The position numbers and the translations under genes are program-made. Shown piece by piece: positions 17,465 through 35,879 of a stretch of 64,000 nucleotides of DNA; positions within the stretch are counted from its first letter, which is position 1, and each line of letters opens with the position of its first letter. The notes beneath the pieces are model-generated. The model worked only from the letters and a program-made list of their open reading frames with translations, was not told where the DNA came from and did no database searches. Source of the stretch: Acuticoccus sediminis (GTDB lineage Bacteria; Pseudomonadota; Alphaproteobacteria; Rhizobiales; Amorphaceae); assembly GCF_003258595.1 (NCBI RefSeq), contig NZ_QHHQ01000004.1, positions 496,001-560,000 on the forward strand, written 5' to 3'.

Positions 17465-17475
17465 CCACGCCTCCT

Positions 17476-17493
17476 TTGTCTAACAGTCAGACA
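17476..17493. promoter_or_regulatory. Predicted GntR operator, site 1
   Basis: TTGTCTAACAG at 17476-17486 matches the TTGT-N3-ACA core shared by three other intergenic regions. It is embedded in a further inverted repeat TGTCT...AGACA (17477-17493). It sits between the divergent small-subunit gene and the Gfo/Idh/MocA gene, next to the ribosome-binding site of the former. Confidence 0.55.
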
Positions 17494-17537
17494 CATCCTA
17501 CCGTCCCGCAATCGCCCTGCCCAGGAGAACCGACCCC

Positions 17538-18536
17538 ATGCCCGCCGCCACCCAACTCGCCATCGTCGGCCTCGGACGCTGGGGCAAGGTCCTCGTCGAC
17601 TCGGTGCAGAACAAGAGCGAGACCGTCCGCTTCGTCGCCGCCGTCAGCCGCGACCCCGCCCGCATCGCCGCCGACGCCGCCGAGCGAGGCCTCACCACCT
17701 ACGACAACCTCGACGCCGCGCTCGCCGACCCCGCGGTCGAGGGCATCGTCCTCGCCTCGCCGCACTCGCTGCATGCCGAGCAGATCGCGACCTGCGTCGC
17801 CGCCGGAAAGCCGGTGCTGGTGGAGAAGCCCTTCACGCTGACCAGGGCGACCGCCGCCGAAGCGCTCGGCAAGGCGGCCGACGCCGGCGTCCTCGTCACC
17901 TCCGCGCACAACCGGCGCTTCCTGACGCCGATCACCAGGCTGAAGGCGATGCTGGACGCGGGCGAGCTCGGCACGCTGCTGCATCTTGAGACGAACTTCT
18001 CCTCCAACGTGGTGGGCCGCTACTCCGCCGATCACTGGCGCGTCGCGCCCGGCGAGAGCCCGGCGGGCGGGCTCGCCGGCTCCGGCATCCACCACATCGA
18101 CGGGATCATCTTCCTCGCCGGGCCGATCAGCGAGGTGTTCGCCGTCTCCTGCCAGCGGGTCCACGAGGTGCCGCTCGACGACACCACCGTCGTCACCATG
18201 CGCCTCGCCTCCGGCGCCACGGCCTCGCTGCTGATGATCACCGCGACCACGCCCACCTTCCGCATCGTCGCCTACGGCACGAAGGGCAAGGCCGAGATCA
18301 ACGGCGACGCGGCCAAGCGCGGGACCGAGACGATGGTGGTCACCGCCCTCGACGGCACCGAGACCCGGCATGAATTCGAGGCGTTCGACATCGAGCGCGC
18401 CGAGGTCGAGGCGTTCGCCGCGTCGATCCGCGACGGTGCGCCCGCGCAGGTCCCGGCGGCGGATATCCTCAACGGCATCGCCGCCTTCGAGGCGGTCCCC
18501 CGCTCGGCCGAGACCGGCCAGCCGATCAAGCTCTGA
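17538..18536 (+). CDS. Gfo/Idh/MocA-family NAD(P)-dependent oxidoreductase
   Basis: A 332-residue oxidoreductase. The Rossmann motif is IVGLGRWGKVLVDSV at the N-terminus, and the family's EKP motif is in GKPVLVEKPFTLT, whose Lys helps catalysis. The second domain includes GGLAGSGIHHIDGIIFLAG, with the His pair expected near the active site. Family members oxidise or reduce sugars, inositols and related hydroxy compounds. It has a good ribosome-binding site (AGGAG) and lies 45 bases after a predicted GntR operator, shared with the divergent small gene. It is placed in the catabolic regulon on that basis. The substrate is unknown. Confidence 0.88.
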   Translation: MPAATQLAIVGLGRWGKVLVDSVQNKSETVRFVAAVSRDPARIAADAAERGLTTYDNLDAALADPAVEGIVLASPHSLHAEQIATCVAAGKPVLVEKPFTLTRATAAEALGKAADAGVLVTSAHNRRFLTPITRLKAMLDAGELGTLLHLETNFSSNVVGRYSADHWRVAPGESPAGGLAGSGIHHIDGIIFLAGPISEVFAVSCQRVHEVPLDDTTVVTMRLASGATASLLMITATTPTFRIVAYGTKGKAEINGDAAKRGTETMVVTALDGTETRHEFEAFDIERAEVEAFAASIRDGAPAQVPAADILNGIAAFEAVPRSAETGQPIKL

Positions 18537-18766
18537 ACCTCCCGCTGGAGCCGGCGTCCGCGCCGCGCTCCGGCCTCCCCCCGCGCACGCGTCGCGCCCC
18601 CGCCCGTCAGGCGCCTCCGCGCCGCGCGCGGCCTCCCGGATAGGACATCGCACCGACACCGAACCGCGGCCGCCCGACGGCGCGGGAGCGATGCCGCGCG
18701 TCGTCGTCATGCCGCCGGGTGGCGCGGAAATCCGTGCCCCCCGGGCAGCCGCCGCATTCCTTTGGA

Positions 18767-18785
18767 TTGACTAATTGTCTAACAT
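18767..18785 (+). promoter_or_regulatory. Predicted GntR operator, site 2, with -35-like hexamer
   Basis: TTGTCTAACAT at 18775-18785 repeats the core seen at 17476. A TTGACT hexamer (18767-18772) lies immediately upstream and could be a -35 element, so a bound repressor would cover the promoter. The RraA-like gene starts at 18813. The preceding 230 bases (from 18537) hold no gene. Confidence 0.5.
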
Positions 18786-18812
18786 ACTCGCGGTGACTGA
18801 CGAGAGGCACAC

Positions 18813-19529
18813 ATGCACGCACTATCGGACGACGTGAGGCGGAAGCTGATGGGAGTGTCCGTTCCCGCGGTCGTCTCCCTCCTGTGGCGCAACGGCTACA
18901 AGAACACGATGCTGTTCGGCCCCCGTCCGGTGAACCCGAACACCAACCGCTTCGTGGGCACCGCCTTCACCGTCCGCACGATCCCGGTCCGCGAGGACTT
19001 CGTCGACGCGCAGAACCGTGGCGACCGGCCCAACCTGCAGGCCCAGGCGGTCGCCGAGATCGGCCCCGGCGAAGTGCTCGTGGTCGCGATGGACGGCGAG
19101 ACCCGCACCGCCTTCATGGGCGACATCATGTCGACCCACCTCGCCGTGAAGGGTGTCGCGGCTGTGGTCACCGACGGCTCGGTGTCGGACGCGGCGATGA
19201 TCGCCACCATCCCCCTCCCGGTGATCGCCGGCGGCAACGCGGCGACGACGTACCTGTCGCACCGCTACGTCACCGACCTCAATGTGCCGGTGGGCCTCGC
19301 GGGCGTCGCGGTGTGTCCGGGCGACGTACTGATGGGCGATGCCAACGGCGTCGTCGTGATCCCCGCCGACATGGCCGAGACGATCGCCGACCTCGCCGTC
19401 GAGCGCGAGCTTCTCGAGGAGTTCGTGCTCGCCAGGGTGAAGGACGGCGCCCCGCTCATCGGCACCTATCCGCCCAACGAGGAGACGCTGGCCGCGTTCG
19501 AGGCCTGGCGCAAGGCCGAGGGCCGCTGA
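18813..19529 (+). CDS. RraA / HMG-aldolase-like family protein
   Basis: A 238-residue member of the RraA-like fold, which includes 4-hydroxy-4-methyl-2-oxoglutarate aldolase and many sugar-acid catabolic proteins. The core reads GVAAVVTDGSVSDAAMIA. In aldolases this motif is DGxxRD, with the Arg orienting pyruvate and the Asp on the metal side; here the Arg is Ser125 while Asp126 is kept. Activity may therefore differ from classical aldolases. The N-terminal VSVPAVVSLLWRNGY matches the family. It has a GAGAGG ribosome-binding site and a predicted operator 28 bases upstream. It could cleave a 4-hydroxy-2-oxo acid formed by the neighbouring pathway. Confidence 0.8.
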   Translation: MHALSDDVRRKLMGVSVPAVVSLLWRNGYKNTMLFGPRPVNPNTNRFVGTAFTVRTIPVREDFVDAQNRGDRPNLQAQAVAEIGPGEVLVVAMDGETRTAFMGDIMSTHLAVKGVAAVVTDGSVSDAAMIATIPLPVIAGGNAATTYLSHRYVTDLNVPVGLAGVAVCPGDVLMGDANGVVVIPADMAETIADLAVERELLEEFVLARVKDGAPLIGTYPPNEETLAAFEAWRKAEGR

Positions 19530-19537
19530 CCCCGCAC

Positions 19538-19565
19538 GGACCCGGCGCCATCACGCGCCGGGTCC
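19538..19565. terminator. Bidirectional hairpin between convergent genes
   Basis: An 11-bp perfect stem (GGACCCGGCGC at 19538-19548, GCGCCGGGTCC at 19555-19565) with a six-base loop lies between the convergent RraA-like and hydroxyacid dehydrogenase genes. A second stem, TCCGCGT/ACGCGGA, follows at 19581-19602. Neither has a U-tract. Confidence 0.65.
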
Positions 19566-19622
19566 CTCCGAAGCCCACCATCCGCGTCCGGACGAACGCG
19601 GACGGGCCCCGGGGGTCAGGCG

Positions 19623-20660
19623 TCAGGCGTCGAAGCGATGCCCGTGGCGCTCCAGTTCCCTCAGGTTGACGCAGCTCCTGAGGCGTCCTTCCGTCAGGTA
19701 CCCCATCACCGCCCGAGTCGACAGGCGCCGCATGTCGGCAAGACCTTCCGGCGAATAGAAGGCCGCGTGGGGGGTAATGATGAGCCGCCCGTCGAGCCAG
19801 CCCTCCCGTGCGCCCCAGGCCGCGATCAGCGGGTGGCTGCGGTCGAGCGGCTCCCTCGGCAGCACGTCGAGCGCGGCCGCGTTGAGCTTGCCCGAGCGCA
19901 GGCCACGCTCGATCGCGTCGAGGTCCACCGTCCCCCCGCGCGAGGTGTTGATGAGCACCGCTCCCGGCTTCATCGCCGCGATGGCGTCGTCGTCGATGAT
20001 CTGCGCCGTCTGCGGCGTCAGCGGGCAATGGACGCTGACGATGTCGGCCTGGGCGAGCAGGTCCTCCAGCGTCGCCGCCCGCGTGAAGCCGAAGGACAGC
20101 TCCGTCCCGGCCGGCAGGAAGGGGTCGTAGAACGCGACGGTCATCCCGAACGCCTTCGCCCGCAGCGCCGCCGCGGTGCCGATCCGCCCCATGCCGATGA
20201 CGCCGAATGTGCGGATCGAGAGGCGCCGCACCGGCGGGAGCGGCAGTGCGTGCGTCCCCCAGGCGTCGTCGCGGGTCCACAACCGCTCGGCGTAGGTCGG
20301 GATGCCGCGCGAGAGGGCGAGCATCAGACCGATCGCGTGATCGGCGACCTCCATGGTCCCGTAGTCCGGCGTGTTGCACACCGGGATGCCGCGCGCCGCG
20401 CAGGCGTCGAGGTCGATGTGGTTGAAGCCGACGCCGGCCTGCACCACCACCTTGACCGTCGTCATCCCGGCGACGAGGTCGGCCGGGATATAGTGGCGGC
20501 TGCGGCAGTTCACGACGGCGTCCGCCCCGTCGAGATCGGCCGGACTCACCGGGTCGTAGCCCGGCCGGAGGATCGTGAACTCGGTGTCCGCCCCCGCCTC
20601 GTCGAGCTCGATGTCGGGCGTCCCGTCGAACTGCGGGTCGATGATGGCGATGCGGGTCAT
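19623..20660 (-). CDS. D-2-hydroxyacid dehydrogenase, NAD(P)-dependent
   Basis: A 345-residue dehydrogenase of the D-isomer-specific 2-hydroxyacid family. The Rossmann motif is FGVIGMGRIGTAAALRA. Catalytic Arg is in NTSRGGTVD, Glu in DVLPREPLD and His in TPHAAFYSPEG, the standard Arg-Glu-His set. It would interconvert a 2-oxo acid and a D-2-hydroxy acid in the cytoplasm. It is the last gene of an eight-gene minus-strand operon and its ATG overlaps the aminotransferase stop by four bases. Pairing with an aminotransferase suggests amino acid, oxo acid and hydroxy acid steps in one route. The substrate is not known. Confidence 0.9.
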   Translation of the reverse strand: MTRIAIIDPQFDGTPDIELDEAGADTEFTILRPGYDPVSPADLDGADAVVNCRSRHYIPADLVAGMTTVKVVVQAGVGFNHIDLDACAARGIPVCNTPDYGTMEVADHAIGLMLALSRGIPTYAERLWTRDDAWGTHALPLPPVRRLSIRTFGVIGMGRIGTAAALRAKAFGMTVAFYDPFLPAGTELSFGFTRAATLEDLLAQADIVSVHCPLTPQTAQIIDDDAIAAMKPGAVLINTSRGGTVDLDAIERGLRSGKLNAAALDVLPREPLDRSHPLIAAWGAREGWLDGRLIITPHAAFYSPEGLADMRRLSTRAVMGYLTEGRLRSCVNLRELERHGHRFDA

Positions 20661-21775
20661 GCGGGCTCCGTCGCCACGCCGATTTCAGCGAGCGATTCGT
20701 CGATGGCAGCGAGGACGAGGGTCATGTCGCTCTCGTCGAGATCGCCCATGACGCCGATGCGGAAGGTGCCGGCGGCGGTCAGCCGGCCGGGGAAGATGAT
20801 GAAACCCCGCTTCTCCATCGCCGCGTAGAAGCTCCGGAAATCGTAGGCGGGGTCCGCGGGATCCTTGAAGGTGGCGATGATCGGCGCCGCGATCTCGTCC
20901 GGCAGCAGCGTCTCGAACCCGCGCTGGCGCAGACCGTCGACGAGGCGGCGCCAGTTGGCCCGGTAGCGGGCCGCACGCGCCTCCAGCCCCTCCGCCCGGT
21001 GCCGCTCGCAGCCCTTTGCGAGCGCCGCCACGACGTGCGTCGGCGGGGTCCAGCGCCACGCTCCCTTCTCCTCCATGAAGCGCCACTGCGCGTGAAGATC
21101 GAGCACCACCGCGGGCGACCGGCCGGCGCTCGCCTCGAGCGCGTCGCGGCGTGCGACCACGAGGGCGACGCCGGGGACACTCTCCAGGCACTTGTTGGGG
21201 GAGATGAAGATCGCGAGCGCGTCGAGCGCCGCGGCATCGATGGGGAAGCCCCCGAAGGAGGCGACCGCGTCGATCATCAGCTCCTTGCCGTGGCGCCGCG
21301 CGACGTCGGCCACCATCGCGACGGGATTGAGGACACCCGTCCCCGTCTCGGCGTGGCAGATCATGATGTGGGTGATCGCCGGGTCGGCCTCCAGCGCCGC
21401 CTCGATGTCGGCCTCGGTCGGCAGCGGCAGCATCGGCAGCGACAGGACGGACACCGAGAACCGTGCCCCGGTGGCGATCTCCGCAAGGCGCTGGCCGTAG
21501 AACCCGTTCTCCACCACAAGGATGCGGCTCGTCTCGCGCGGGACCAGGGTGTGGAGCCCGGCCTCGACGCCGTAGGTGGCGCTCCCCTGGATCGGCACGC
21601 ACGCGTGCGTGTCCGTACCGTTGCAGATCTCCAGACAGTAGGCGCGGATGGCGCTGGTCATCGCCATGTGCGTCGCCGCGTTGGGGCTGTGGTCGCGCAG
21701 CATCTCGGCCTTGATCTCGGCCGGAACGGTCAGCGGACCGGGCGTCAGAAGGTAGGTCTTCTTCGTTTCTTCCAT
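20657..21775 (-). CDS. Class V aminotransferase, PhnW-like
   Basis: A 372-residue PLP enzyme resembling 2-aminoethylphosphonate-pyruvate transaminase and serine-glyoxylate transaminase. The N-terminal LLTPGPLTVPAEIKAEMLRD, QGSATYGVEAGLHTL and the PLP lysine region FISPNKCLESVPGV are PhnW-like. The C-terminal FRIGVMGDLDESDM also fits. However, no phosphonatase or phosphonoacetaldehyde gene is present, so a non-phosphonate amino donor is more likely in this context. It lies nine bases after the hydantoinase B gene and overlaps the dehydrogenase start. Confidence 0.85.
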   Translation of the reverse strand: MEETKKTYLLTPGPLTVPAEIKAEMLRDHSPNAATHMAMTSAIRAYCLEICNGTDTHACVPIQGSATYGVEAGLHTLVPRETSRILVVENGFYGQRLAEIATGARFSVSVLSLPMLPLPTEADIEAALEADPAITHIMICHAETGTGVLNPVAMVADVARRHGKELMIDAVASFGGFPIDAAALDALAIFISPNKCLESVPGVALVVARRDALEASAGRSPAVVLDLHAQWRFMEEKGAWRWTPPTHVVAALAKGCERHRAEGLEARAARYRANWRRLVDGLRQRGFETLLPDEIAAPIIATFKDPADPAYDFRSFYAAMEKRGFIIFPGRLTAAGTFRIGVMGDLDESDMTLVLAAIDESLAEIGVATEPA

Positions 21776-21784
21776 GGGCCTCCC

Positions 21785-23803
21785 CTATGCGGCCTGCGCG
21801 GCGACGTCCGCGCGAAGCCGCGTCATTTCCTCGTCGAGCCGGACGCGGGCGGCGGCGATGTCGCCGATCACCTCCTCCATCGGCACGGGGCCGACGTCGG
21901 CGAGGCGCGGCACGACGGCCTCGAACAGGGCGCGGCGGCGGAGCGGCCTGTGCCCCGGCGCCAACGCCATGAAGAGCGCGTTCATCTCGCACATGGTGGC
22001 GTCGTCGAAGAGCGCGTCCCACGCCCCTCGCTCGGGTCCGAGCGCGAAGGCGGGCGGCGGCGCGTTGGTGCGCCGTCCCGCGCGCTCCGCCTCGGTCGCC
22101 GCCGCGTCGAGGACGCCGTCCGCGATCACCACGCCGTAGTCCCGCAGCGCCGCGGCTACGCTCACGTAACCGAGGCGGACGTCCGACAGGACGGTCCCGG
22201 CCGGGCGCTCCAGCGGGTCGCCGTAGCCGCCGCCGCCGGGCGTCATGATGGTCACGGTATCGCCCGGCTCGGGATGGAAGATGTCGAGCTTGCCGAGGTC
22301 GCGCTCGCCCGGCGTGCCGAGGTTGAGGACGACGCGCGCCTTCTCGCCCGGCTGCCCGCCCGCCATGCCCCAGGGCCGGAAGACGAAGCGCTCCATGCCG
22401 CGACCGAGCACCGCGCTGCCGGCCCGCGCGATCTTCACCTGGAACACCACGCCCGTGCCGCCGCGCCACCGCCCCGCACCGCCGGAGTCGGCGCGCAGGG
22501 CATAGTCGGTGATGATCGCCTCGGCCTCCTCCTCGGTCTTCTCCATCGGCGTGTTGCGCTGGTTGGCGAGCGAGGAATCGCGCCCGTCCACTCCGTCCGC
22601 GCCGTCGCGCGCGCCGGTGCCGCCGACCAGCGACTGCAGCACCATCACGTGCCGGTCGCCGGTGCGCGCGTCCTGCTCGACGAGGACGGCAGGAATCATG
22701 ATGCCCCCGCTGGCCGCCGGCATCACGCCGGGCCGGGCCGCCGACATCGCCCCCACCAGCGCCTCGTTGAGGCGGATGGCGGTCGCCGAGCGGATGCCCA
22801 CCGCCGCGCCCGGCGTCGGGTTCATCACGGAGCCGCGCGGCGCCTCGACGGTGATGTTCTCGAAGATACCGTGGTTGAGGGGGATCGTCTTGTCGTTGCT
22901 GAAGATGAAGTGCATCAGCTTCAGCGTCAGCCACGGGTGGCGGTGGCCACCGGTCGGGATGTTGTAGGCCGAGAGGACCTGCGGGTCCGAACCGGTGAAG
23001 TCGAGATGGATCCGCCCGGCATCGGCCGTCAGCGTGCAGCGCACGCGGATCGGGACCCTGGAATTGTAGTCGTCGTCCATCAGGTCCCAGAAGGTGTAGG
23101 ACCCGTCCGGGATCATCTTCTGGACCGCGAGCGCCTTCGTGGCGGCGACCTCCGCGAGGTCCGCCTGGGCGTCGAGGAAGGTCTCGACCCCGTGCAGCGC
23201 GATGAGCTGCCTGACCCGCCGCTCGCCCACCAGAAGCGCCGAGAGCATCGCCTTGATGTCGCCGAGGTTGACGTCGGGCGTGCGGCAGTTGGCGCGGTAG
23301 AGGGCGAGGACGTCCTCGTTCATCACCCCCTCCTTCACCAGCTTCAGCGGCGGGATCTGGAGCCCCTCCTGGAAGTTGTCGCTGAAGCGGGGCGAGATCG
23401 ACGAGGGCACACCGCCGCCGATGTCGGCGGAGTGGATGAAGTCCCACGCGTGGCAGACGATCTCCCCCTCGTGGAAGATCGGCCGGATGAGATGAAGGTC
23501 CGGCATGTGCGTCGCCAGCCCCTCGGAGAGGTAGGCGTGGTTGGTGATGACGACGTCGCCGGGACGCAGATCCTTCACGTGGGCGAGTGTCGGCCCGACG
23601 TGGCTGTCGAGGAACCCCGAGACGCCCATCACCTTCGGGTAGGCGAAGAAATGCCCTTCCGGGTTGGCGAGCGCGGTGCCGTAGTCGCCCGCCTCCTTCA
23701 CGTAGGTGGTGCGGGCGGTGCGCTGGAGGGCGATGGCCATCTCCTCGGCGATGGCCGTCACCTTGTGGGACATGATTTCGACGAGGACGGGGTCGAGCCT
23801 CAT
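21785..23803 (-). CDS. Hydantoinase/oxoprolinase subunit B (HyuB/HydB family)
   Basis: A 672-residue protein matching the hydantoinase B/oxoprolinase domain over its length. It starts LDPVLVEIMSHKVTAIAEEM, with the early block GDYGTALANPEGHFFAYPKV, FTGSDPQV, YNIPTGGHRHPWLTL and the glycine-rich GGGGYGDPLERP near the C-terminus. With subunit A it forms an ATP-dependent amidohydrolase opening cyclic amides such as hydantoins or 5-oxoproline, or in related enzymes carboxylating ketones. Its ATG overlaps the subunit A stop by four bases, so the two are translationally coupled. Confidence 0.93.
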   Translation of the reverse strand: MRLDPVLVEIMSHKVTAIAEEMAIALQRTARTTYVKEAGDYGTALANPEGHFFAYPKVMGVSGFLDSHVGPTLAHVKDLRPGDVVITNHAYLSEGLATHMPDLHLIRPIFHEGEIVCHAWDFIHSADIGGGVPSSISPRFSDNFQEGLQIPPLKLVKEGVMNEDVLALYRANCRTPDVNLGDIKAMLSALLVGERRVRQLIALHGVETFLDAQADLAEVAATKALAVQKMIPDGSYTFWDLMDDDYNSRVPIRVRCTLTADAGRIHLDFTGSDPQVLSAYNIPTGGHRHPWLTLKLMHFIFSNDKTIPLNHGIFENITVEAPRGSVMNPTPGAAVGIRSATAIRLNEALVGAMSAARPGVMPAASGGIMIPAVLVEQDARTGDRHVMVLQSLVGGTGARDGADGVDGRDSSLANQRNTPMEKTEEEAEAIITDYALRADSGGAGRWRGGTGVVFQVKIARAGSAVLGRGMERFVFRPWGMAGGQPGEKARVVLNLGTPGERDLGKLDIFHPEPGDTVTIMTPGGGGYGDPLERPAGTVLSDVRLGYVSVAAALRDYGVVIADGVLDAAATEAERAGRRTNAPPPAFALGPERGAWDALFDDATMCEMNALFMALAPGHRPLRRRALFEAVVPRLADVGPVPMEEVIGDIAAARVRLDEEMTRLRADVAAQAA

Positions 23804-25881
23804 TGCGCCGCCTCCCGCGACAGGTGGAGTGTGCCGAGGCGGTCGGCGACGGCGCGCCAGCCGGGCAGGATCAGCGTGGTGGTGTCCAGCTGCTCGATGA
23901 TGGCGGGACCGGGTACCACCGCGCCGCGGCCGACGTCGGCGCGCTGGTAGACCGCCGCGCCGACCACCTCGCCGCGATGCCAGAGGGGGCGATGGCCCCT
24001 CGGGGCGGGCGCGGTCGCGTCAGGCTCGGGCAGCGCCACCGGGGCGACGCGGCCGATCACCCCGAGGCGCACGGTTGCCGTCTCGATCGGCGTCTCGTCC
24101 TCGCGGAACCCGTAGAGGCGGTCGTGCTCCGCGTGGAAGCGGGCAACGATGCCCGCCTCGTCGATGGTGTCGCGCTCGGCCGGCGGCACGATGATCTCGA
24201 TCTCGTAGGCCTGCCCGCCGTAGCGCAGGTTGAACGAGACGGAGACGTCCGCCTCCCCCACGAGCCGCCCCTCGCGCGAGAGCCAGTCGCGGGCCTCGGC
24301 CTCCAGCGCCTCGATGAGGCTCTCGATGGTGGCCCAGCCGGAGCGGCCGGGCATGACCGCGCCGATCGTGTGGCGCGCGGTCCGCACGTAGTCCCGCCGC
24401 ACGTCGGCGAGGATGGCGCCCAGCGCGCAGAACGTGCCGGGCGCAGTCGGCACCAGAACGGTGTCGAGCTGGGCCTCCTCCGCGAGGAGGCTCGCGTGGG
24501 TCGGCCCCGCGCCGCCGTAGGCGACGAGCGCGAAGTCGCGCGGATCGACGCCCGCAGTGGCGAGGAGCTTGGTGATCTCGGTCGCCATCTTGGCGCTGGC
24601 GACGCCGATGGCGGCGGTCGCCGCGCGCACCGCGCGGTCCTCACCGGCCGGGTAGCCGAGCCTGTCGGCGATGCCCTCCAGCGCCTGCCGCGCGGCCGCG
24701 ACGTCGAGCGTCATCCGTCCGCCGAGGAACGTCGCCGGGTCGATGATGCCGAGCGTGATGTAGCAGTCGGTCATGGTCGGTTGCGTGCCGCCGCGGCCGT
24801 AGGACACCGGGCCCGGATCGGCACCCGCCGACAGCGGTCCCACCTTGAGGAGCCCCTGCGCGTCCACCCACACGATGGACCCGCCGCCCGCACCGATCGC
24901 GCCGACGTTGACGACCGGCATCATCAGCGGGAAATCGCCGACGAAGGTGGTCGTCGTGAACTCGGGCACCCCCGTCTGGCAGACCGCGATGTCGGCCGAG
25001 GTGCCACCCATGTCGAAGGTGACGAGTTGCAGCCGCTCCGCCGCGCCGCCCACCTTGGTGGAGGCGACGACGCCGGACGCCGGTCCCGACAGCACCGTGT
25101 CGATGGGCCGGTCGCGCGCGGTCTTGAGGCTCAGCGTCCCGCCGTTGTTGGCGGTGATGTAGATCGGCGCGGTCACGCCGTGCTTCTCGACCCGCGCTTC
25201 CAGGCGGTCGAAGTAGTCCGTCATCAGCGGGTGGATGTAGGCGTTCAGGCCGGCCACCAGCCCGCGCTCGTACTCGCGCACCTCCGGCCAGATGACACCG
25301 GACGAGGTGACCAGCACGTCGCCGAGGCGCGCGCTCAGCGCGTCGGCGAGCTCCGTCTCGAGCGATGCGTCGCGGTAGGCGTTGAGGAGGACGATGGCGA
25401 CGGCATCGACGTCCGCGGCGCGCAGCGTCCCGGCCAGCGCATCCACCTCGGCCATGTCGAGCGGGGTGATGAGGCTGCCGTCCGAGCGCATCCGCGCCGA
25501 CACCTCGAACACGAGGTCGCGCGGCACCAGCGGCATCTCGCGCGGGACGGTGAAGTCATAGGAACTCGGCAGGCGCAGCCGCGCGATCTCGAGGAGGTCG
25601 CGATTGCCTCTGGAGACGACCAGCGCCATCCGCGCGCCGCGCCGCTGGATGATCGCGTTGAGCCCGATGGTGGTGCCGTGGACGATCAGCTCGACGTCGC
25701 CGGGCGCGATGCCGTGCGCCCTGAACAGCGCATCGAGGCCGCGTTCGACCGCGAGGGAGGGATCGTCCGGGACGCTCGGCTCCTTGTAGAAGGCCAGCGT
25801 CGCGCGGGTCCGGTTGGCGAGAACGAAGTCAGTGAACGTACCGCCGACGTCGATGCCGATGCGGTAGGACGCGTCGCTCAT
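23800..25881 (-). CDS. Hydantoinase/oxoprolinase subunit A (HyuA/HydA family)
   Basis: A 693-residue ATP-binding subunit. The N-terminal phosphate-binding motif is IGIDVGGTFTDFVLANR. The central actin-like motif is TFDMGGTSADIAVCQTG, followed by GAIGAGGGSIVWVD and YGGAGPTHASLLAEE. These define the hydantoinase A/N-methylhydantoinase family. ATP hydrolysis activates the amide for cleavage by subunit B. The gene lies 89 bases after the transporter binding-protein gene, with a hairpin in between, so its level may be lower than that of the binding protein. The substrate is presumably what the transporter imports. Confidence 0.93.
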   Translation of the reverse strand: MSDASYRIGIDVGGTFTDFVLANRTRATLAFYKEPSVPDDPSLAVERGLDALFRAHGIAPGDVELIVHGTTIGLNAIIQRRGARMALVVSRGNRDLLEIARLRLPSSYDFTVPREMPLVPRDLVFEVSARMRSDGSLITPLDMAEVDALAGTLRAADVDAVAIVLLNAYRDASLETELADALSARLGDVLVTSSGVIWPEVREYERGLVAGLNAYIHPLMTDYFDRLEARVEKHGVTAPIYITANNGGTLSLKTARDRPIDTVLSGPASGVVASTKVGGAAERLQLVTFDMGGTSADIAVCQTGVPEFTTTTFVGDFPLMMPVVNVGAIGAGGGSIVWVDAQGLLKVGPLSAGADPGPVSYGRGGTQPTMTDCYITLGIIDPATFLGGRMTLDVAAARQALEGIADRLGYPAGEDRAVRAATAAIGVASAKMATEITKLLATAGVDPRDFALVAYGGAGPTHASLLAEEAQLDTVLVPTAPGTFCALGAILADVRRDYVRTARHTIGAVMPGRSGWATIESLIEALEAEARDWLSREGRLVGEADVSVSFNLRYGGQAYEIEIIVPPAERDTIDEAGIVARFHAEHDRLYGFREDETPIETATVRLGVIGRVAPVALPEPDATAPAPRGHRPLWHRGEVVGAAVYQRADVGRGAVVPGPAIIEQLDTTTLILPGWRAVADRLGTLHLSREAAQ

Positions 25882-25937
25882 GACGGCCTTTCATGATCAG
25901 GAAGGGGACGCCCGCGACGAGGCGCGGGCGGGAAGAC

Positions 25938-25964
25938 GGCCGGCCCCGCTGCGGCGCCGGCCGG
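25938..25964 (-). terminator. Intra-operon hairpin after the binding-protein gene
   Basis: An 8-bp perfect stem (CGGCCGGC at 25938-25945, GCCGGCCG at 25957-25964) with an 11-base loop directly follows the binding-protein stop. Such stem-loops commonly raise binding-protein expression over downstream genes by mRNA stabilisation or partial termination. There is no U-tract. Confidence 0.5.
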
Positions 25965-25970
25965 GTGGGG

Positions 25971-27563: not shown

Positions 27564-27623
27564 GTACGTCCTTTCGGTCAGTTCGAGGGCAGTTCCGGCT
27601 GCGGCGGGAGGTCAGGGCCCCGC

Positions 27624-28577: not shown

Positions 28578-29560
28578 GCCCGGCCCCCGCTCGCGACGGT
28601 CGCCCGAAGGCGCGGGTCGATCGCGTAGTAGAGGAGGTCGACGACGAGGTTGATGGTCACGAAGAAGACCGCGATGAGGATGAGGTAGGCCGACAGCACC
28701 GGCACGTCCGCCGCCGCGACCGACTGCAGGAAGAGGAGCCCCAGCCCCGGCCACTGGAAGACCTGCTCGGTGATGACCGCGAACGCGATGACCGAGCCGA
28801 GCTGCAGCCCCGCCACCGTGATCACCGGCACCAGCGTGTTGCGCAGCGCGTGGTGGATGTGGACCGAGCGCCCCGGCAGGCCCCGCGCCTGGGCGAAGCG
28901 GATGTAATCCATCCGCAGCACTTCCAGCATCTCCGCCCGCACGAGACGCATGATCATCGCGATCTGGAACACCGAGATCGTGACCGCCGGCATGATGAGG
29001 GCCTTGATCCCGCTCGCGGTGAGGAAGCTCGTCGTCCAGCCGCCGAGGTCGGTCACCTGGCCGCGCCCGAAGGAGGACAGCCAGCCGAGCTTGACCGAGA
29101 AGATCCAGATGAGGAGGAGCCCCATGAAGAAGGACGGCATGGAGATACCGATGAGGGAGACCGCCAGCGCGAGGTTGCTGCCGACCCTGCCGCGCTTGAG
29201 CGCGGCGTAGATCCCGGCCGGGATGCCGACGGCGAGCGCCAGCACCATCCCCGTCGTGGCGAGCTCGATGGTCGCGGGGGCGCGTTCGGCGAGGACCCGC
29301 GCGACGGGCGTTCCGAGGCGGTAGGATATGCCGAAATTGCCCTGCAGCGTCTTCCACACGTAGTCGGCGAACTGCAGCACGAGCGGCCGGTCGAGGCCGA
29401 GTTCGGCGCGCAGCGCGTCGCGCTGGATCCCGGTCGAGTTGGCGCCGAGGATCGAGACGATGGGATCGCCGAGAAAGCGGAACATCAGGAAGGCGAGCAC
29501 CATCACCACGGCGATCACCACCACCGCCTGCAGGACGCGCTGCACCAGGAAGAGGCTCAC
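28574..29560 (-). CDS. Peptide-type ABC transporter permease (DppB-like)
   Basis: A 328-residue inner-membrane permease that starts with GTG at 29560, giving MSLFLVQRVLQAVVVIAVVM, a typical DppB first helix. GNFGISYRLGTPV is the family's periplasmic block, and the EAA motif is DYIRFAQARGLPGRSVHIHH. Six membrane helices are apparent. The GTG overlaps the aminotransferase stop (29557-29560), so the transporter is co-translated with an enzyme gene. The start is chosen because any upstream extension would lie inside the aminotransferase gene. Confidence 0.92.
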   Translation of the reverse strand: MSLFLVQRVLQAVVVIAVVMVLAFLMFRFLGDPIVSILGANSTGIQRDALRAELGLDRPLVLQFADYVWKTLQGNFGISYRLGTPVARVLAERAPATIELATTGMVLALAVGIPAGIYAALKRGRVGSNLALAVSLIGISMPSFFMGLLLIWIFSVKLGWLSSFGRGQVTDLGGWTTSFLTASGIKALIMPAVTISVFQIAMIMRLVRAEMLEVLRMDYIRFAQARGLPGRSVHIHHALRNTLVPVITVAGLQLGSVIAFAVITEQVFQWPGLGLLFLQSVAAADVPVLSAYLILIAVFFVTINLVVDLLYYAIDPRLRATVASGGRA

Positions 29561-30894
29561 GCGCCCCCCTCCCCGCGCTCCAGCGCGACGGCTTCGGCCA
29601 CCGCCGCGCCGAGGCCTCGGTAGTCGGCCGCCTCGTTGTAGACCTGCGCGCTGATCCTCAGCCACACGGCGCCGGCCAGCGTGGTGAAGGCCGCCTCGAT
29701 GCCGTGCGCGTCGTAAAGGTGCGCACCGAGGCGGGCGACGCCCTCGCGCGTCGGCTCGGCGCCGGCCGGGAGCGATACCGTGACCATCGACTGGAACGCC
29801 GAGGGCACCGCGCCGAGGCCCGTTCCGAGGGCCGCGGCCGCGTCCTCGGCCGCCGCCAGCGCCAGATCCCGGTTGCGGTCCCGCAGCGCCGGTCCGCCGA
29901 GCGAGCGATGCAGCGCGACCGCCAGCGGCAGCGTCAGCACGGCGGACATGTCCCGCGTCCCCTGCTTGTCGAACTCCGGCGCGAAGCCCTGGCCGTAGGC
30001 GTGGGAAATGGCGAGCGGGTGAACCGGCGCGGCCGAGCGGCCCACCGCGACGAAGGCCGCGCTCTTGGCGCCGCACAGCCATTTGTGACCGTTGCCGACG
30101 TAGTAGTCCGCCCCGATCGCATCGACGTCGAGGTCGAGGAGGCCCGGGGCGTGCGCGCCGTCCACCAGAAGCGGCACGGCCCTCGCCCGGCACAGCGCCG
30201 CGACGGCGGCGACGGGGAACGTCACGGCCGAGCCCGACGCCACATGGTCGACGATGACGAGCCGCGTGCGCGCGCCGATCGCCTCGCCGATGGCGTCGGT
30301 CACCACCGCCGGGTCGGCAATCGGCATGCCCAGCGGCACGGTGACGACGCGCGCGCCGGTCGCTGCCGCGGCAAACGCCAGCAGCTGGCGCACGGCGTTG
30401 TACTGGTGGTCCGTCACGACGATCTCGTCGCCGGGCTCCAGCGCGAGCCCCCGGACGACGGTCGCCACCCCCTCGGTGGCGTTGACGACGAAGCCGAGAC
30501 GCTCCGGATCGGTGCCGACGAAGTCCGCGACGGCGTCGGCCGCCTGCCGCAGCGCCCCCGGCAGCTCGCGCATGAAGAATCGGGCGGGATTGCGCTCCAT
30601 CCGCGCGCGCCAGTCGGCCTGCCCGGCCTGGATCGCGCGCGGGGTGGCTCCGTATGCCCCATGGTTCAGGTAGCGCGTATCCGCGTCGAGCGTGAACAGC
30701 GCCCGTGCCGGCGCACCCCACAGCGCCGCGCCGGTGGCCGGCTCGCCGCGCCAGACCTCGCCCGGGTCCGCGCGGCGAGGCGGCTCCCCGAAGACCGCGT
30801 CGTCCGCCGCGCCCGCGCCGGACGCCGCCGACGCATCGTCGCGGCATGACAATTGCGAGGTCTCGTCAGGGCTCACGGCGGTCATCAACGGCAT
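29557..30894 (-). CDS. Class V aminotransferase, isopenicillin-N-epimerase-like
   Basis: A 445-residue PLP-dependent enzyme. Key blocks are TRYLNHGAYGATPRAIQ, NATEGVATVVRGL, the cofactor Asp/His in LVDGAHAPG and the PLP lysine in YYVGNGHKWLCGAKSA. These resemble the CefD/cysteine-desulfurase-like branch, which includes epimerases, lyases and aminotransferases. An Ala/Asp-rich stretch of about 55 residues precedes the fold; start 30894 or the Met at 30885 are both possible. It is the first gene of the eight-gene operon and a predicted GntR operator lies 18 bases upstream. An epimerase or C-N lyase role is as likely as transamination. Confidence 0.85.
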   Translation of the reverse strand: MPLMTAVSPDETSQLSCRDDASAASGAGAADDAVFGEPPRRADPGEVWRGEPATGAALWGAPARALFTLDADTRYLNHGAYGATPRAIQAGQADWRARMERNPARFFMRELPGALRQAADAVADFVGTDPERLGFVVNATEGVATVVRGLALEPGDEIVVTDHQYNAVRQLLAFAAAATGARVVTVPLGMPIADPAVVTDAIGEAIGARTRLVIVDHVASGSAVTFPVAAVAALCRARAVPLLVDGAHAPGLLDLDVDAIGADYYVGNGHKWLCGAKSAAFVAVGRSAAPVHPLAISHAYGQGFAPEFDKQGTRDMSAVLTLPLAVALHRSLGGPALRDRNRDLALAAAEDAAAALGTGLGAVPSAFQSMVTVSLPAGAEPTREGVARLGAHLYDAHGIEAAFTTLAGAVWLRISAQVYNEAADYRGLGAAVAEAVALERGEGGA

Positions 30895-30904
30895 TCCAGA
30901 GCGT

Positions 30905-30922
30905 CGTTAGACTGTATAACAA
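30905..30922 (-). promoter_or_regulatory. Predicted GntR operator, site 3
   Basis: Read on the minus strand this is TTGTTATACAGTCTAAC, with core TTGT-N3-ACAG at 30912-30922. The flank ACAGTC also occurs at site 1. It lies between the amidohydrolase stop (30939) and the start of the aminotransferase-transporter-hydantoinase operon (30894). Confidence 0.55.
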
Positions 30923-30938
30923 TTAGCCATGCCTTCAA

Positions 30939-32240
30939 TCAAGGCAGAACTGGCCGATCGGCCCCGGCGCCGCACCACCTTCCACCCTTCATCACGCTGA
31001 GCCGGGCGGGATCGCCGAGGATGGAGAGGTCGGCCAGCGGGTCGCCGTCGACGAGCACGAGATCGGCGAGGAGACCCGGCCGGATCCGCCCCGCTTCGAG
31101 CTCCAGGAGATCGGCGTTCGTGGCCGTCGCCGCGCAGAGCGCCTCCATCGGCGACAGCCCGCCCTCCACCAGAAGCGCCAGCTCGCGCCAGTACATCGCG
31201 CCGTGGGTGACCTGGAAGCCGGCGTCGGTGCCGCAGGCGATGGTGACGCCGGACGCCTTCGCGCGTGCCATCGTCTCCCACTTCGCGGTGCGCGAGGCCT
31301 CCAGCCAGCGCCAGTGCACCGGGCTCACGCCCTGCGTCGCCCGGTCGATCTCGAAGTTGCGCTCGTTGACGAGCAGGGTCGGCACGAACACCGTCCCGGA
31401 CCGGACCATCAGCTCGACGACCGCGTCGTCGGTGAAGTGGGCGTGCTCCACGCAGTCGACTCCCCGGCGGATCGTCTCGGCAAGCGCCTCCTCTCCCGTG
31501 GTGTGGGAGGCGACCTTGAGGCCCTTGCGGTGCGCCTCGTCGCACGCCGCCCCGATCTCGTCGGGCGCCATCTCCAGCCGGCACCACGCACCCGGTCCGC
31601 CATACGCCGGCCCGCAGGTGTTGAGCTTGATGAAGTCCGCGCCGCGCTTGGCCTCGAGGCGCACGCCGCGCCGGAATCCGTCGGCGCCGTCGCACGGCTG
31701 CGTCAGGCCGTCGAAGCGGGTCTGGTCGCCCCAGCCCGGCTGGTCCATGTGCCCGCCGGTCACCGACAGCCCACGCCCGCACGCGCGGATGCGCGGCCCC
31801 TCGACGTGCCCGGCCGCGATCGCGTCGCGCAGGTCGATGATGACGCCGCCCGGCGCGTGCATGTCGCGCACCGCGGTGATGCCGTGGGCCAGCGTCGCGC
31901 GCGCGTACCCCGCCGCGCGCAGGGCGATGGCGGGGTAGGACATCTCCGCGTGCTCGTTGCGGAAGGCCGCCTTCGTCGGCGCGCCGCTGTAGGCGAGGTG
32001 GACATGGGCGTCGATGAGGCCGGGGACGAGCGTGCGGCCCGCCGCGTCGATCACCTCGGTGCCGTCGGGGAAGCCGATGTCGTCCGCCGCGCCGACCGCC
32101 GCGATCCGGTCTCCCTCCACCAGCACGGCGCCCGGAAAGGGCGCGGCGCCGGTGCCGTCGACGATCGACGCCCGGAGGAGCGTCCGCGCGGGCCGGGCAG
32201 GCGCGGCGGGGACGACGGACAACGAGGTGGAATCGGCCAT
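30939..32240 (-). CDS. Amidohydrolase (imidazolonepropionase-like)
   Basis: A 433-residue metal-dependent hydrolase. The metal motif HVHLAYSG follows LVPGLIDA. Lys in FIKLNTCGPAYG, His in VASHTTGEEA, EHAHFT and the Asp in CGTDAGFQV complete the amidohydrolase metal site. Members of this branch act on cyclic amides, prolidase-type dipeptides or aryl amides. It is cytoplasmic and the last gene of the unit starting with the transporter ATPases, two bases after the GMC gene stop. It could act before or after the hydantoinase in breaking amide bonds. Confidence 0.9.
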   Translation of the reverse strand: MADSTSLSVVPAAPARPARTLLRASIVDGTGAAPFPGAVLVEGDRIAAVGAADDIGFPDGTEVIDAAGRTLVPGLIDAHVHLAYSGAPTKAAFRNEHAEMSYPAIALRAAGYARATLAHGITAVRDMHAPGGVIIDLRDAIAAGHVEGPRIRACGRGLSVTGGHMDQPGWGDQTRFDGLTQPCDGADGFRRGVRLEAKRGADFIKLNTCGPAYGGPGAWCRLEMAPDEIGAACDEAHRKGLKVASHTTGEEALAETIRRGVDCVEHAHFTDDAVVELMVRSGTVFVPTLLVNERNFEIDRATQGVSPVHWRWLEASRTAKWETMARAKASGVTIACGTDAGFQVTHGAMYWRELALLVEGGLSPMEALCAATATNADLLELEAGRIRPGLLADLVLVDGDPLADLSILGDPARLSVMKGGRWCGAGADRPVLP

Positions 32241-32242
32241 CT

Positions 32243-33862
32243 CTAGTGCTCCGTGACGATGTGGTCGGCGGTGCGCAGGGCCAACGCCTGCGCCGTGCTG
32301 GTCGGGTTCATCGCGCTGCCGGTCACGAAGACGCTGGAGTCCGCGAGGAAGAGGTTGGAAACGTCGTGGCAGCGGCCGAACCGGTCGGTGACCGACGTCT
32401 CGCGGTCGTTGCCCATCCGCGCGGTGCCCATGAGGTGAAACCCGGCCTGCGCCTTCAGCGGATCGACCGCGATCGCCCGCGCCCCGGCGGCGCGCAGCAC
32501 CTCCTCGGCCCGGGCGATGGCGAAGTCGAGCGCGGCCCGGGACTCCGGCGCGAGGCGGTAGGTCATCTTCGCCGCCGGGTAGCCGTCGCGGTCGGTCACC
32601 GCGTCCGACAGGGTCACGCGATTGTGCGCCTCCGGCAGGTCCTCCGCGCAGATCGTGAGGCGCGCGACGTGGTCGAAGCGGGACGCGAAGGCGGCGTGGT
32701 GCCCCGTGCCCCATGGGAGCGGCCCGCCCACCGCGTCGGGCAGCGCCGCCTCGGCGGGACCCGGCCCCGGCCCGAGCTGCATCTTGAAGCCGCGCGGAAA
32801 GCCGCGCGCGGGATCGGGGACGAGGAACTCCAGGCAGACGATCCCGGCCTTCTGCCCCGGCGTCCAGCTCCCGACCGGCGCGTCGAGCAGCCCGTCGACG
32901 CGTGCGTGCGGGTGCAGCATCAGGTTCCGGCCGACGAGGCCGGAGCGGTTGGCAAGCCCCGCGCCGGTGCCCGACATCAGGAGCAGGCGCGGCGTCCCCA
33001 CCCCTCCTGCCGCCAGCACGTAGCGCGACGCCCGCACCCGCACGGCGCCGTCGTCGGTGCCGCAGACCAGCGCCGTCACGCGGCCGTCCGGCCCGGTCTC
33101 GAACGTCAGCGCGCGGTGCCCCGTCAGGAGGCGCGCTCCGGCGGCGATCGCGGGCGCCATGTACGTCCGGTCCGCGCCGGCGGCGACGCGCGCCGGGCAG
33201 CCCGCGTCGCAGGGACCGGCGTGCGTGCAGAGCGCGCTGTCGCCGCGCGAAAGCTCCACCGGCCAGTGATGCCAGCCGAGCGCGTCGAAAGCCCGGGCCA
33301 TCCGCCGGCCGACCGGACCGGCGGTCGGCACCGTCCGCGGCGGCGCCCCCAGCCCCGGCCCGCCGCCCCCCGGGGCGCGGTCGGGACCGGCCGGATCGCC
33401 CGGCACGGCGGCAAGGCCCATCACCCTCTCGTTGATGGCGTAGTAGCGGGCGAGGTCCGCGTGCGCGATCGGCCAGTCGTGCGCCACCCCGTCGAGGGTG
33501 CGCACGCGAAAGTCCTCCTCGCGGAACCGCGGAATGTGCGCCGCCCACCACAGGGTCGTGCCGCCGACCGCGTTGCCGATGGAGGCCTTGATCGGGCTGT
33601 CGCGGTCGTCGACCGGCAAGTCGCCGGCGCCTCGCCTGACATTCGGATTCTCGTGCAGCGGGCCGCTCCGCGCCGCGCCGTAGTCGTCGGCGCCGAAGCC
33701 GAACGCCGCCGCGTCGCGCGCGGCCCCCGCCTCCACACAGACGACGTCGATGCCGGAGGTCGCGAGGCGCCACGTGGCCGCCGCCCCGCACGCCCCTGCC
33801 CCGACCACCACGACGTCGGCCTCGACCGTCGCGCCGGCCGCCGCCGGCCCGCCGCGCGGCAT
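32243..33862 (-). CDS. GMC-family FAD-dependent oxidoreductase
   Basis: A 539-residue flavoprotein. The FAD-binding Rossmann motif is VVVVGAGACGAAATWRL near residue 17, with the adenine-ribose Glu in VVCVEAG. The C-terminal catalytic part has HLMGTARMG and the closing GMC block SAMNPTSTAQALALRTADHI. The start at 33862 (MPRGG) places the FAD motif correctly; one base separates it from the preceding ATPase stop. It oxidises alcohol or sugar hydroxyls. Membrane-linked relatives work with a subunit-3 protein, and a candidate for that is encoded at 17063-17464 under the same predicted operator. Confidence 0.9.
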   Translation of the reverse strand: MPRGGPAAAGATVEADVVVVGAGACGAAATWRLATSGIDVVCVEAGAARDAAAFGFGADDYGAARSGPLHENPNVRRGAGDLPVDDRDSPIKASIGNAVGGTTLWWAAHIPRFREEDFRVRTLDGVAHDWPIAHADLARYYAINERVMGLAAVPGDPAGPDRAPGGGGPGLGAPPRTVPTAGPVGRRMARAFDALGWHHWPVELSRGDSALCTHAGPCDAGCPARVAAGADRTYMAPAIAAGARLLTGHRALTFETGPDGRVTALVCGTDDGAVRVRASRYVLAAGGVGTPRLLLMSGTGAGLANRSGLVGRNLMLHPHARVDGLLDAPVGSWTPGQKAGIVCLEFLVPDPARGFPRGFKMQLGPGPGPAEAALPDAVGGPLPWGTGHHAAFASRFDHVARLTICAEDLPEAHNRVTLSDAVTDRDGYPAAKMTYRLAPESRAALDFAIARAEEVLRAAGARAIAVDPLKAQAGFHLMGTARMGNDRETSVTDRFGRCHDVSNLFLADSSVFVTGSAMNPTSTAQALALRTADHIVTEH

Positions 33863-33863
33863 G

Positions 33864-34727
33864 TCAGGGCGCCTCCCCGGAGACCGCCTGCCCCGGCGCG
33901 CCGACCCGCTCCTCGACCGCATCGACGGTGGGAACGGCGGCGATCAGGCGCCGCGTGTATTCATGGCGCGGCGCCTCGAAGATCGCGGCGGCGGGCCCGT
34001 CCTCGACCAGCCGGCCGCGCGACAGGACGCCGATGTCGTCAGCCATGAAGCGCACGACGGCAAGGTTGTGGCTGATGAAGAAGTAGGTCAGCCCAAGCTC
34101 GTCCTGCAGCTCGCGCATCAGGTTGAGGATCTGCGCCTGGACCGAGACGTCGAGCGCGGACGTCGGCTCGTCGCAGATGATGAAGTCGGCGCGCGTCGCG
34201 ATCGCCCGTGCGATGGCGATCCGCTGGCGCTGGCCGCCGGAGAACTCATGCGGATAACGCACACCGTCATCCGGATGAAGGCCGACCCGCTCCAGCAGCG
34301 TCCCCACCGCGCCGAGCGTCTCCGCCCGGCCCTTGCGCTCGCCCGGCCCCATCAGCGGCTCGCCGATGATCGCGTTCACCTTCCACCGCGGATTGAGGCT
34401 CGAATAGGGGTCCTGGAAGATCATCTGCAGCCGCCGCCGGCCGGCCGCGTCGGCCGCCGCCTGGCCGGCACCCGTCACGGCGGCGTCGCCGATGCGGACC
34501 GTCCCGCGCGTCGGCTCCAGGAGCCCCGCGACCATGCGTGCGATGGTGGACTTGCCGGACCCCGACTCGCCGACGAGCGCATAGGTCGTGCCCTTGCGGA
34601 TCGTGAAGGAGACGTCGTCCACCGCCGTGAGGGCGGGCGGCGTGCGGCCGGCGATGCGCATGGCGACGGTGCGGCGCGGGGCGAACACCTTGGTGAGCCC
34701 CTCGACCCGGACGAGCGGCGCGTTCAT
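33864..34727 (-). CDS. Peptide-type ABC transporter ATPase (DppF/OppF-like)
   Basis: A 287-residue ATPase. Walker A is GESGSGKST, the signature is FSGGQRQR, Walker B is FIICDEPTSALD, and the H-loop is FFISHNLAVVR. The Met at 34727 is chosen because it overlaps the preceding ATPase stop (34724-34727) and starts the ABC fold. It lacks the Cys-rich C-terminal tail of its neighbour, the usual F versus D difference. It powers the permeases encoded about 5 kb downstream on the same strand but in another predicted unit. Confidence 0.92.
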   Translation of the reverse strand: MNAPLVRVEGLTKVFAPRRTVAMRIAGRTPPALTAVDDVSFTIRKGTTYALVGESGSGKSTIARMVAGLLEPTRGTVRIGDAAVTGAGQAAADAAGRRRLQMIFQDPYSSLNPRWKVNAIIGEPLMGPGERKGRAETLGAVGTLLERVGLHPDDGVRYPHEFSGGQRQRIAIARAIATRADFIICDEPTSALDVSVQAQILNLMRELQDELGLTYFFISHNLAVVRFMADDIGVLSRGRLVEDGPAAAIFEAPRHEYTRRLIAAVPTVDAVEERVGAPGQAVSGEAP

Positions 34728-35722
34728 CGCGCGGCGTCCGCGTCGAAGAGGTGGCAGGCGACGTCGACAGGTCCGTCCCGCCGCAGCGACGGGCGCGACC
34801 GCTCGCACGGCCCGAACGATGCCTCGCAGCGCGGGTGGAACGCGCACCCCACCGGGATCGCGGAAAGGCGGGGCATGGACCCGGGGATCTGCACGAGCCG
34901 CTCAGGGCGGTGGGTGAGCGGCGGGATCGCCGCCATCAGGCCCCGGGCGTAGGGATGGCGCGGGCGGCGCACCACCTCGTCCACCGGCCCGACCTCGACG
35001 ACGCGCCCGGCGTACATCACCGCCACCCGGTCGGCCATCCTGGCGATCACGCCCATGTCGTGGGTGATCAGCAGCAGCGCCGTGCGCCGCTCCCGGCAGA
35101 GCTTGCGCAACAGCTCCAGGATCTGCGCCTGGACGGAGACGTCGAGCGCTGTCGTCGGCTCGTCGGCGATGACGAGTTCCGGCTCGCCCGCCAGCGCGAG
35201 GGCGATCACGACGCGCTGGCGCATCCCGCCCGAGAATTCGTGCGGGTAGCTGGAGAGGCGCTGCTCGGCGTTGGCGATGCCGGTCTCCTCGAGGAGCTCG
35301 ACCGCCCGCCGCCGGGCGCCCGCCGCATCGACGTTGAGGTGGACACGGATGGTCTCGGTAAGCTGGTCGCCGATGGTCAGGAGCGGGTCGAGGCTGACCG
35401 ACGGGTCCTGGAACACCATGCCGATCCGCTTGCCCCGGATGGGGCGCATCTGCCGCTCCGGCAGATTGTCGATCCTGAGCCCGGAGAGACGGATCTCGCC
35501 GCCGGTGATCCGCCCGCCGCCGGCGAGCAGTCCGATCACCGCCGCCCCGGTCACCGATTTTCCGGCACCGGACTCCCCGACGACGCCAAGGACTTCGCCC
35601 TTGGAAATTTGCAGCGAGATGCCGTCCAGTGCCGTCAGCGATCCCCGCCGGGTCCGGAACTCTACTGTCAGATCACGAACCGACAGGACCGGTTCGCTCG
35701 GCGCGGACTGTGGTGCGCTCAT
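34724..35722 (-). CDS. Peptide-type ABC transporter ATPase (DppD/OppD-like)
   Basis: A 332-residue ATPase with Walker A GESGAGKS, signature FSGGMRQR, Walker B LVIADEPTTALD and H-loop LLITHDMGV. The C-terminal tail CAFHPRCEASFGPCE is the Cys motif of oligopeptide transporter D subunits. The start at 35722 (MSAPQSAP) precedes the fold; an upstream Met at 35797 is less likely. It is the first gene of a unit that continues with the F ATPase, GMC oxidoreductase and amidohydrolase. A predicted GntR operator lies about 140 bases upstream. Confidence 0.92.
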   Translation of the reverse strand: MSAPQSAPSEPVLSVRDLTVEFRTRRGSLTALDGISLQISKGEVLGVVGESGAGKSVTGAAVIGLLAGGGRITGGEIRLSGLRIDNLPERQMRPIRGKRIGMVFQDPSVSLDPLLTIGDQLTETIRVHLNVDAAGARRRAVELLEETGIANAEQRLSSYPHEFSGGMRQRVVIALALAGEPELVIADEPTTALDVSVQAQILELLRKLCRERRTALLLITHDMGVIARMADRVAVMYAGRVVEVGPVDEVVRRPRHPYARGLMAAIPPLTHRPERLVQIPGSMPRLSAIPVGCAFHPRCEASFGPCERSRPSLRRDGPVDVACHLFDADAAR

Positions 35723-35862
35723 CGGGAAACTGTGGCTTCCTCTCCGGACCCTCGATTGCCCGCTGCGAGGCAAAGCCCGTGCCATGGACGGTGCCATCTC
35801 GCCGGGAACAGCCCTGCATTCTTAACCGGTTGCCGCATCGGAGCAGGCCCCACAGCCGTACA

Positions 35863-35879
35863 AGTTTGTATAACAAACT
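35863..35879. promoter_or_regulatory. Predicted GntR operator, site 4 (17-bp palindrome)
   Basis: AGTTTGTATAACAAACT is a palindrome with 7-base arms and a 3-base centre, the best form of the TTGT-N3-ACAA core. It lies between the divergent ATPase-led unit and the SDR gene, next to the GntR gene. It is the strongest candidate for the regulator's primary site. Confidence 0.65.

Follow-up and report, generated by a model that had tools for sequence, protein, structure and literature searches.

Four conserved sites probably place five transcription units of Acuticoccus sediminis under one FadR-type GntR regulator

Operators of the FadR subfamily of GntR regulators follow, according to PMC4494728, the consensus TKGT/ACMA, mostly with 3 nt between GT and AC, and frequently carry extra boxes at 7-12 nt. 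The same paper relates two residues of the helix-turn-helix (HTH) domain to the K/M position, where Arg at 28 prefers and Pro at 40 avoids G/C. No description of an Acuticoccus GntR/hydantoinase regulon was found in the literature searched, which covers only part of publications. Here we consider a candidate for such a regulon in Acuticoccus sediminis, in a stretch of 64,000 nucleotides (the window; bases 496001-560000 of contig C4, GC 71%) from a draft genome of 7.76 Mb in 44 contigs. Four sites with the core TTGT-N3-ACA, in a cluster that spans 18.4 kb of the window, are probably the operators of one FadR-type GntR protein with an FCD domain, encoded at 36676-37635 on the minus strand, which would bind them and repress five transcription units. 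An initial annotation, made from the letters alone, had proposed this regulon; our analysis confirms its observation in part and supports its interpretation, with the neighbouring GntR protein as the predicted binder.

The four cores are present where they had been placed, at 17476, 18775, 30912 (minus strand) and 35866. Operator 1 (17476-17485, plus strand; core TTGTCTAACA(G)) lies 53 bp upstream of a Gfo/Idh gene and is the weakest of the four. Operator 2 (18771-18788, plus strand; CTAATTGTCTAACATACT) has the core TTGTCTAACA(T) at 18775, 29 bp upstream of an RraA-like gene. Operator 3 is a 28-bp block on the minus strand (30905-30932) containing TTGTTATACA (30913-30922, with (G) at 30912), and its core stands 19 bp upstream of an eight-gene operon. 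Operator 4 (35863-35884) comprises AGTTTGT-ATA-ACAAACT and a CTAAC box; its core TTGTATAACAA (35866-35876) matches on both strands, between the divergent DppD unit (144 bp from the start) and an SDR gene (91 bp from the start). The full TNGTNNNACNA is satisfied by one site of the four (35866). Operators 2, 3 and 4 are clear, and the Gfo site is weak in the window's genome.

The proposal is favoured by comparison with the nearest named relative found, Acuticoccus yangtzensis JL1095 (NZ_MJUX01000004.1; G007 in a family sample of ten genomes that includes the window's own, G000). Orthologues of the regulon units share 62-95% protein identity by segment, and the aligned upstream stretches are 46-57% identical. 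For each intergenic region we took the longest ungapped stretch common to the two species, without use of the motif, and compared it with 200 pairs of first-order Markov resamples of both sequences. Before the eight-gene operon the longest exact common stretch is 28 bp (30 bp with one mismatch), and before RraA it is 18 bp (22 bp with one mismatch), lengths that none of the 200 resampled pairs reached in any of these four comparisons. Between DppD and SDR the values are 12 bp (1/200) and, with one mismatch, 20 bp (0/200), and before Gfo they are 10 bp (3/200) and 12 bp (3/200). In all four upstream regions the common stretches contain the sites already noted, and that a motif-blind comparison picks the same four supports the proposed interpretation.

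Conservation of the sites extends across a rearrangement. One A. yangtzensis contig (C12, 1,392,722) carries the Gfo and RraA sites, at positions 82456 and 84455, and another (C24, 467,907) the other two, at 317225 and 322292; provided that the assembly is correct, a distance of at least about 220 kb separates the two groups. The sharing is therefore not an artefact of one conserved locus, and a site that joins gene groups on different contigs again favours a common operator. A matrix built from five sites, four of A. yangtzensis and one of a third family genome (G002), was scanned over the window; the pattern by which these sites were initially found had been fitted to the window, and four of the five coincide with the motif-blind common stretches. 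Of all window positions, operator 3 ranks first (35.9, at 30904), operator 4 second (32.3, at 35857) and operator 2 third (26.9, at 18766), followed by overlapping readings of operators 2-4 and then by operator 1. The A. yangtzensis counterpart of the Gfo site scores 20.3 and 24.2.

The literal motif TTGTNNNACA gives 8 rows in the window against 0.72 expected, a count that 0 of 100 shuffles attain. The cores had been said to occur only in intergenic regions; three more literal matches lie in the window, at 17416 (minus strand, inside the open reading frame 17063-17464), 23763 (plus strand, inside HyuB) and 60152 (minus strand). Frequent occurrence across the genome, which the initial annotation had named as counting against its proposal, is what a scan found for this form: the 7.76 Mb contain 199 rows, the reversed control has 361, and the literal motif was dropped as evidence. 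What distinguishes the four sites is their A/T-rich spacer and flanks. TTGTHWWACA, a pattern fitted to the window sites, has 8 rows at 7 places genome-wide, 4 of them in the cluster (reversed control, 14 rows). TGTWWNACAA, designed to include the sites of A. yangtzensis and G002 when the window sites were already known and so not blind, has 11 rows at 10 places, again with 4 in the 18.4-kb cluster (reversed control, 14 rows), where by our own arithmetic about 0.02 places would be expected at genome density. The clustering of these A/T-spacer motifs is unusual, and their genome totals are not above the reversed control. The other six TGTWWNACAA places were considered as extra regulon members and none was convincing: by eye, they lie inside an M20-peptidase-like gene, before recA, before a BMP-type binding-protein gene, between two other genes, inside a doubtful open reading frame and where no gene is called, which makes at least two or three of them intergenic too.

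The proposed binder is of the expected kind. Its N-terminal winged-helix domain (PF00392; 47.8 bits, cutoff 27; Pfam GntR 1.1e-12) and C-terminal FCD ligand-binding domain (PF07729; 49.9 bits, cutoff 24.3; FCD 5.3e-13) both exceed the Pfam cutoffs, as expected of the FadR subfamily. Over 235 columns the protein is 80% identical to its A. yangtzensis orthologue and 50% to that of G002. A metal/carboxylate site of Asp and three His is a feature of the subfamily, and D144, H148, H192 and H219 are invariant in the three orthologues. So are the HTH residues Thr45, Arg55 and Pro57, at positions 28, 38 and 40 in the numbering of PMC4494728, which we anchored on the Ser-Arg of the recognition helix. 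All nine sites of the three species contain TGTNNNACAA and have T/A at the K/M position; as they were picked with TTGTN3ACA-type patterns, this is consistency and not proof. The protein does not stop at the FCD domain: about 85 further residues, with much Ala, Lys and Arg, form a C-terminal tail (36676-36940). The A. yangtzensis orthologue has another tail, with a similar Arg-rich end. The last 50 bp of the gene also belong to the convergent SDR gene.

The distribution of this protein parallels that of the site. GntR matches at E <= 1e-20 occur in four of the ten family genomes (the window's own, A. yangtzensis at 80%, G002 at 47% and, weakly, G004 at 35%, 4.6e-31), and at E <= 1e-60 in the first three only. 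The extended site GTTAGNTTGTNNNACAA, a pattern written after seeing the three sites, has exactly one exact match in each of these three genomes and none in the other seven. With one mismatch it also finds the eight-gene-operon site in the window's genome and in A. yangtzensis, two places in G001 and one each in G005 and G006. That the extended site accompanies a close GntR relative in three of three family genomes and is absent from the seven others, which have no close relative, supports the interpretation. On plasmids there were no GntR relatives at E 1e-25 and no Gfo relatives at E 1e-60. The claim of a shared operator for a five-unit regulon is thus upheld, as a prediction, by the footprints, the cross-contig sharing and the co-occurrence with the GntR protein, and qualified by the commonness of the literal motif and the weakness of the Gfo site.

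Several observations weigh against this reading. In three of the four window sites the palindrome is short of one outer base. Operator 1 (at 17467 in the cross-species scan) scores 10.2, hardly more than the 9.3 reached by the best unrelated place in the window. The short motif TTGTHWWACA occurs in all ten family genomes (1-15 rows each), including those with no GntR relative, and GTTAGNTTGTNNNACAA with up to two mismatches has fewer matches than the reversed control in each of the ten. The reverse scan, with a matrix of the four window sites, is less specific than the cross-species matrix, giving 21.1, 19.6, 18.7 and 22.6 at L014, L018, L023 and L067, loci with no apparent link; these scores are as high as that of the A. 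yangtzensis Gfo site (20.3). A consensus scan covering one sigma type found no sigma-70-like promoter in 17000-36500. No site precedes the GntR gene itself, where sharing with A. yangtzensis is at chance level (10 bp, 140/200; 15 bp with one mismatch, 12/200), and autoregulation was rejected on this ground. The sole argument for repression over activation is the closeness of sites to gene starts: operators 2 and 3, 29 and 19 bp from the start codons, leave little room for a downstream promoter, which argues for repression.

Some of these points would also fit conserved operators that belong to another FCD/GntR regulator, or to a regulator of another family, with the neighbouring GntR protein controlling something else. 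The genome has 55 FCD genes, and by our own arithmetic one of them would fall within 20 kb of such a cluster by chance about one time in four, so that proximity alone is weak evidence for the neighbouring protein as the binder. The lack of a site before its own gene points the same way, as does a good-scoring site in G008 (TTTAGACACTTGTCTAACAAACC, L067:8251-8278) near an apparent LigB-type dioxygenase gene; no match to the window's GntR protein is found at that locus, nor in G008 at E <= 1e-20, and the site possibly belongs to a different regulator. Against a foreign regulator stands the pairing of extended site and close GntR relative, together in three family genomes and neither in the other seven, where G004 has the weak 35% match only. 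In G002, moreover, the sole exact site, with its TTGTTACACA core, is no more than 2 kb away from the GntR gene; it stands before a deacetylase-SDR gene pair that adjoins this gene, in a neighbourhood that otherwise differs. We regard this alternative as unlikely, though it is the most serious of the three considered here.

Still less probable is that one sigma factor uses the conserved blocks as core promoter elements, with no specific repressor. TGT-TATACA does resemble an extended -10 box, TATACA is preceded by TGT at operators 3 and 4, and by eye a TTGATT/TTGATC hexamer stands 18 nt upstream of TATACA before the eight-gene operon in both species. However, the sites are near-palindromic, one is common to divergent genes, and the core spacers vary (CTA, TAT, ATA); nor would one expect a general promoter element at just 10 places in a genome of 7.76 Mb, with 4 of these clustered together, and the consensus scan, for its one sigma type, detected no promoter.

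A chance match recognised afterwards in a GC-rich genome, which the 199 literal rows below the reversed control of 361 might suggest, is very improbable given the motif-blind footprints, the cross-species matrix and the conserved sites at a relocated locus; it is rejected on matrix and footprints for operators 2-4 and may account for operator 1 alone.

We return, then, to the neighbouring GntR protein as the probable binder of the four sites. A GntR dimer would bind the near-palindromic core TTGT-N3-ACA(A), and at some sites a GTTAG/CTAAC box, at a distance of 7-11 nt from the centre, would assist. It would repress the Gfo gene, the RraA gene, the eight-gene operon, the DppD-DppF-GMC-amidohydrolase unit and the SDR gene. 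A small carboxylate bound in the FCD domain, probably a substrate or intermediate of the pathway, is the predicted signal for release, upon which both halves of a split importer and the catabolic enzymes would be switched on together.

The first two units lie on the plus strand and encode the Gfo/Idh/MocA oxidoreductase (17538-18536, family scan) and the RraA-like protein (18813-19529, NF006093 above cutoff). In A. yangtzensis an extra SDR gene (L062:10593-11372) lies between them. It is divergent from RraA, with the conserved site in between, and may be one more member of the regulon in that species. Another A. yangtzensis site, ACTGTATAACAAT at C12:1242729 (L063:2230-2239), has the operator 3 core before an apparent amidase gene; its score with the window-trained matrix was below 9, and it is kept as a lead, not as a member. 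Divergent from Gfo across operator 1 is the open reading frame 17063-17464, of 133 aa, named a small subunit in the initial annotation. It fell into no family of Pfam or NCBIfam, the A. yangtzensis loci retrieved contain no significant relative, and its vague likeness to small subunits of GMC dehydrogenases is an impression only.

The eight-gene operon runs on the minus strand. From its first gene it encodes a class V aminotransferase-fold protein (29557-30894, family scan), two Dpp-type permeases of an ATP-binding cassette (ABC) importer (28574-29560 and 27624-28577, assigned by sequence and gene context), an ABC substrate-binding protein (SBP_bac_5; 25971-27563, family scan), HyuA, hydantoinase/oxoprolinase A (23800-25881), HyuB, hydantoinase B (21785-23803), a PhnW-like class V aminotransferase (20657-21775; above the cutoffs of NF010006 and TIGR03301, below that of TIGR02326) and, last, a D-2-hydroxyacid dehydrogenase family protein (19623-20660, family scan). 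For HyuA and HyuB the nearest NCBIfam models are caprolactamase alpha and beta, both below cutoff. The DppD unit, also on the minus strand, encodes DppD-type (34724-35722) and DppF-type (33864-34727) ABC ATPases, a GMC oxidoreductase (32243-33862), all three from family scans, and an amidohydrolase (30939-32240; nearest NCBIfam model Xaa-Pro dipeptidase, below cutoff). The SDR-family dehydrogenase (35967-36725, plus strand, family scan) forms the fifth unit. The importer is split over two units, with binding protein and permeases in one and ATPases in the other.

HyuA/HyuB, the two class V aminotransferase-type proteins, the D-2-hydroxyacid dehydrogenase, the amidohydrolase, GMC, SDR, Gfo and RraA make a plausible catabolic set, judged from their families. 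In G004 (L068) an RraA relative (47%) directly precedes HyuA-HyuB (59-60%), and elsewhere in that genome HyuA/HyuB stand beside Dpp permeases, a binding protein, an amidohydrolase relative and DppD/DppF. These neighbourhoods support one pathway, and RraA beside HyuA-HyuB ties the separate RraA unit to the operon. Aminotransferase relatives at E <= 1e-60 occur in 37 of 385 class genomes, the window's own included. The 20 best of the 36 others (41-50% identical; flanks up to about 10 kb per side, several on short contigs) showed no GntR at E <= 1e-6, no A/T-spacer site within 3 kb of the aminotransferase and no regulon-like neighbourhood. No known RNA element was matched at the Rfam gathering score in 17000-38300. 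The compound imported and degraded is probably a peptide-like or lactam/hydantoin-like amino compound.

A bolder proposal, possible but held with distinctly less confidence than the regulon itself, is that a pathway not recognised before is switched on by an undescribed FCD regulator whose operator is composite and one-sided, with a palindromic core, a conserved GTTAG box and possibly more than one bound dimer. The split Dpp importer, the HyuAB-type ATP-dependent lactamase/hydantoinase, the two class V aminotransferases, the GMC and SDR oxidoreductases, Gfo and the RraA-type enzyme would together degrade one natural compound. The regulatory mechanism itself would be ordinary, that of a standard FadR-type regulon. 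The value of the regulon is that it groups fifteen genes of a little-studied genus in one testable pathway, including the two transporter halves and the Gfo/RraA pair relocated in A. yangtzensis, and that a defined operator offers a handle for finding the inducer.

Among known systems, the locus resembles the caprolactamase CapAB and hydantoinase HyuAB clusters in that one operon combines HyuA and HyuB with transport genes and amino-group enzymes; unlike CapA/CapB, however, the window's HyuA and HyuB score 501.2 and 234.9 bits, far below the caprolactamase cutoff of 1000. The PhnR-like phosphonate regulator (TIGR03338) is the best NCBIfam match of the window's GntR protein, and the proposed regulon contains a PhnW-like aminotransferase, but the match reaches 65.8 bits against a cutoff of 271.5, and the scanned genes of the cluster include no other that was recognised as phosphonate-specific. 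The closest likeness is to the FadR subfamily as set out in PMC4494728. The window sites differ from the operators described there in the imperfect outer base at three of four and in having no visible autoregulatory site. They share with that subfamily a regulator of HTH and FCD domains, the 3-nt GT/AC spacer (in sites picked with TTGTN3ACA-type patterns), A/T-rich flanks, metabolic targets, a single site within a divergon and an extra box 7-12 nt from the centre.

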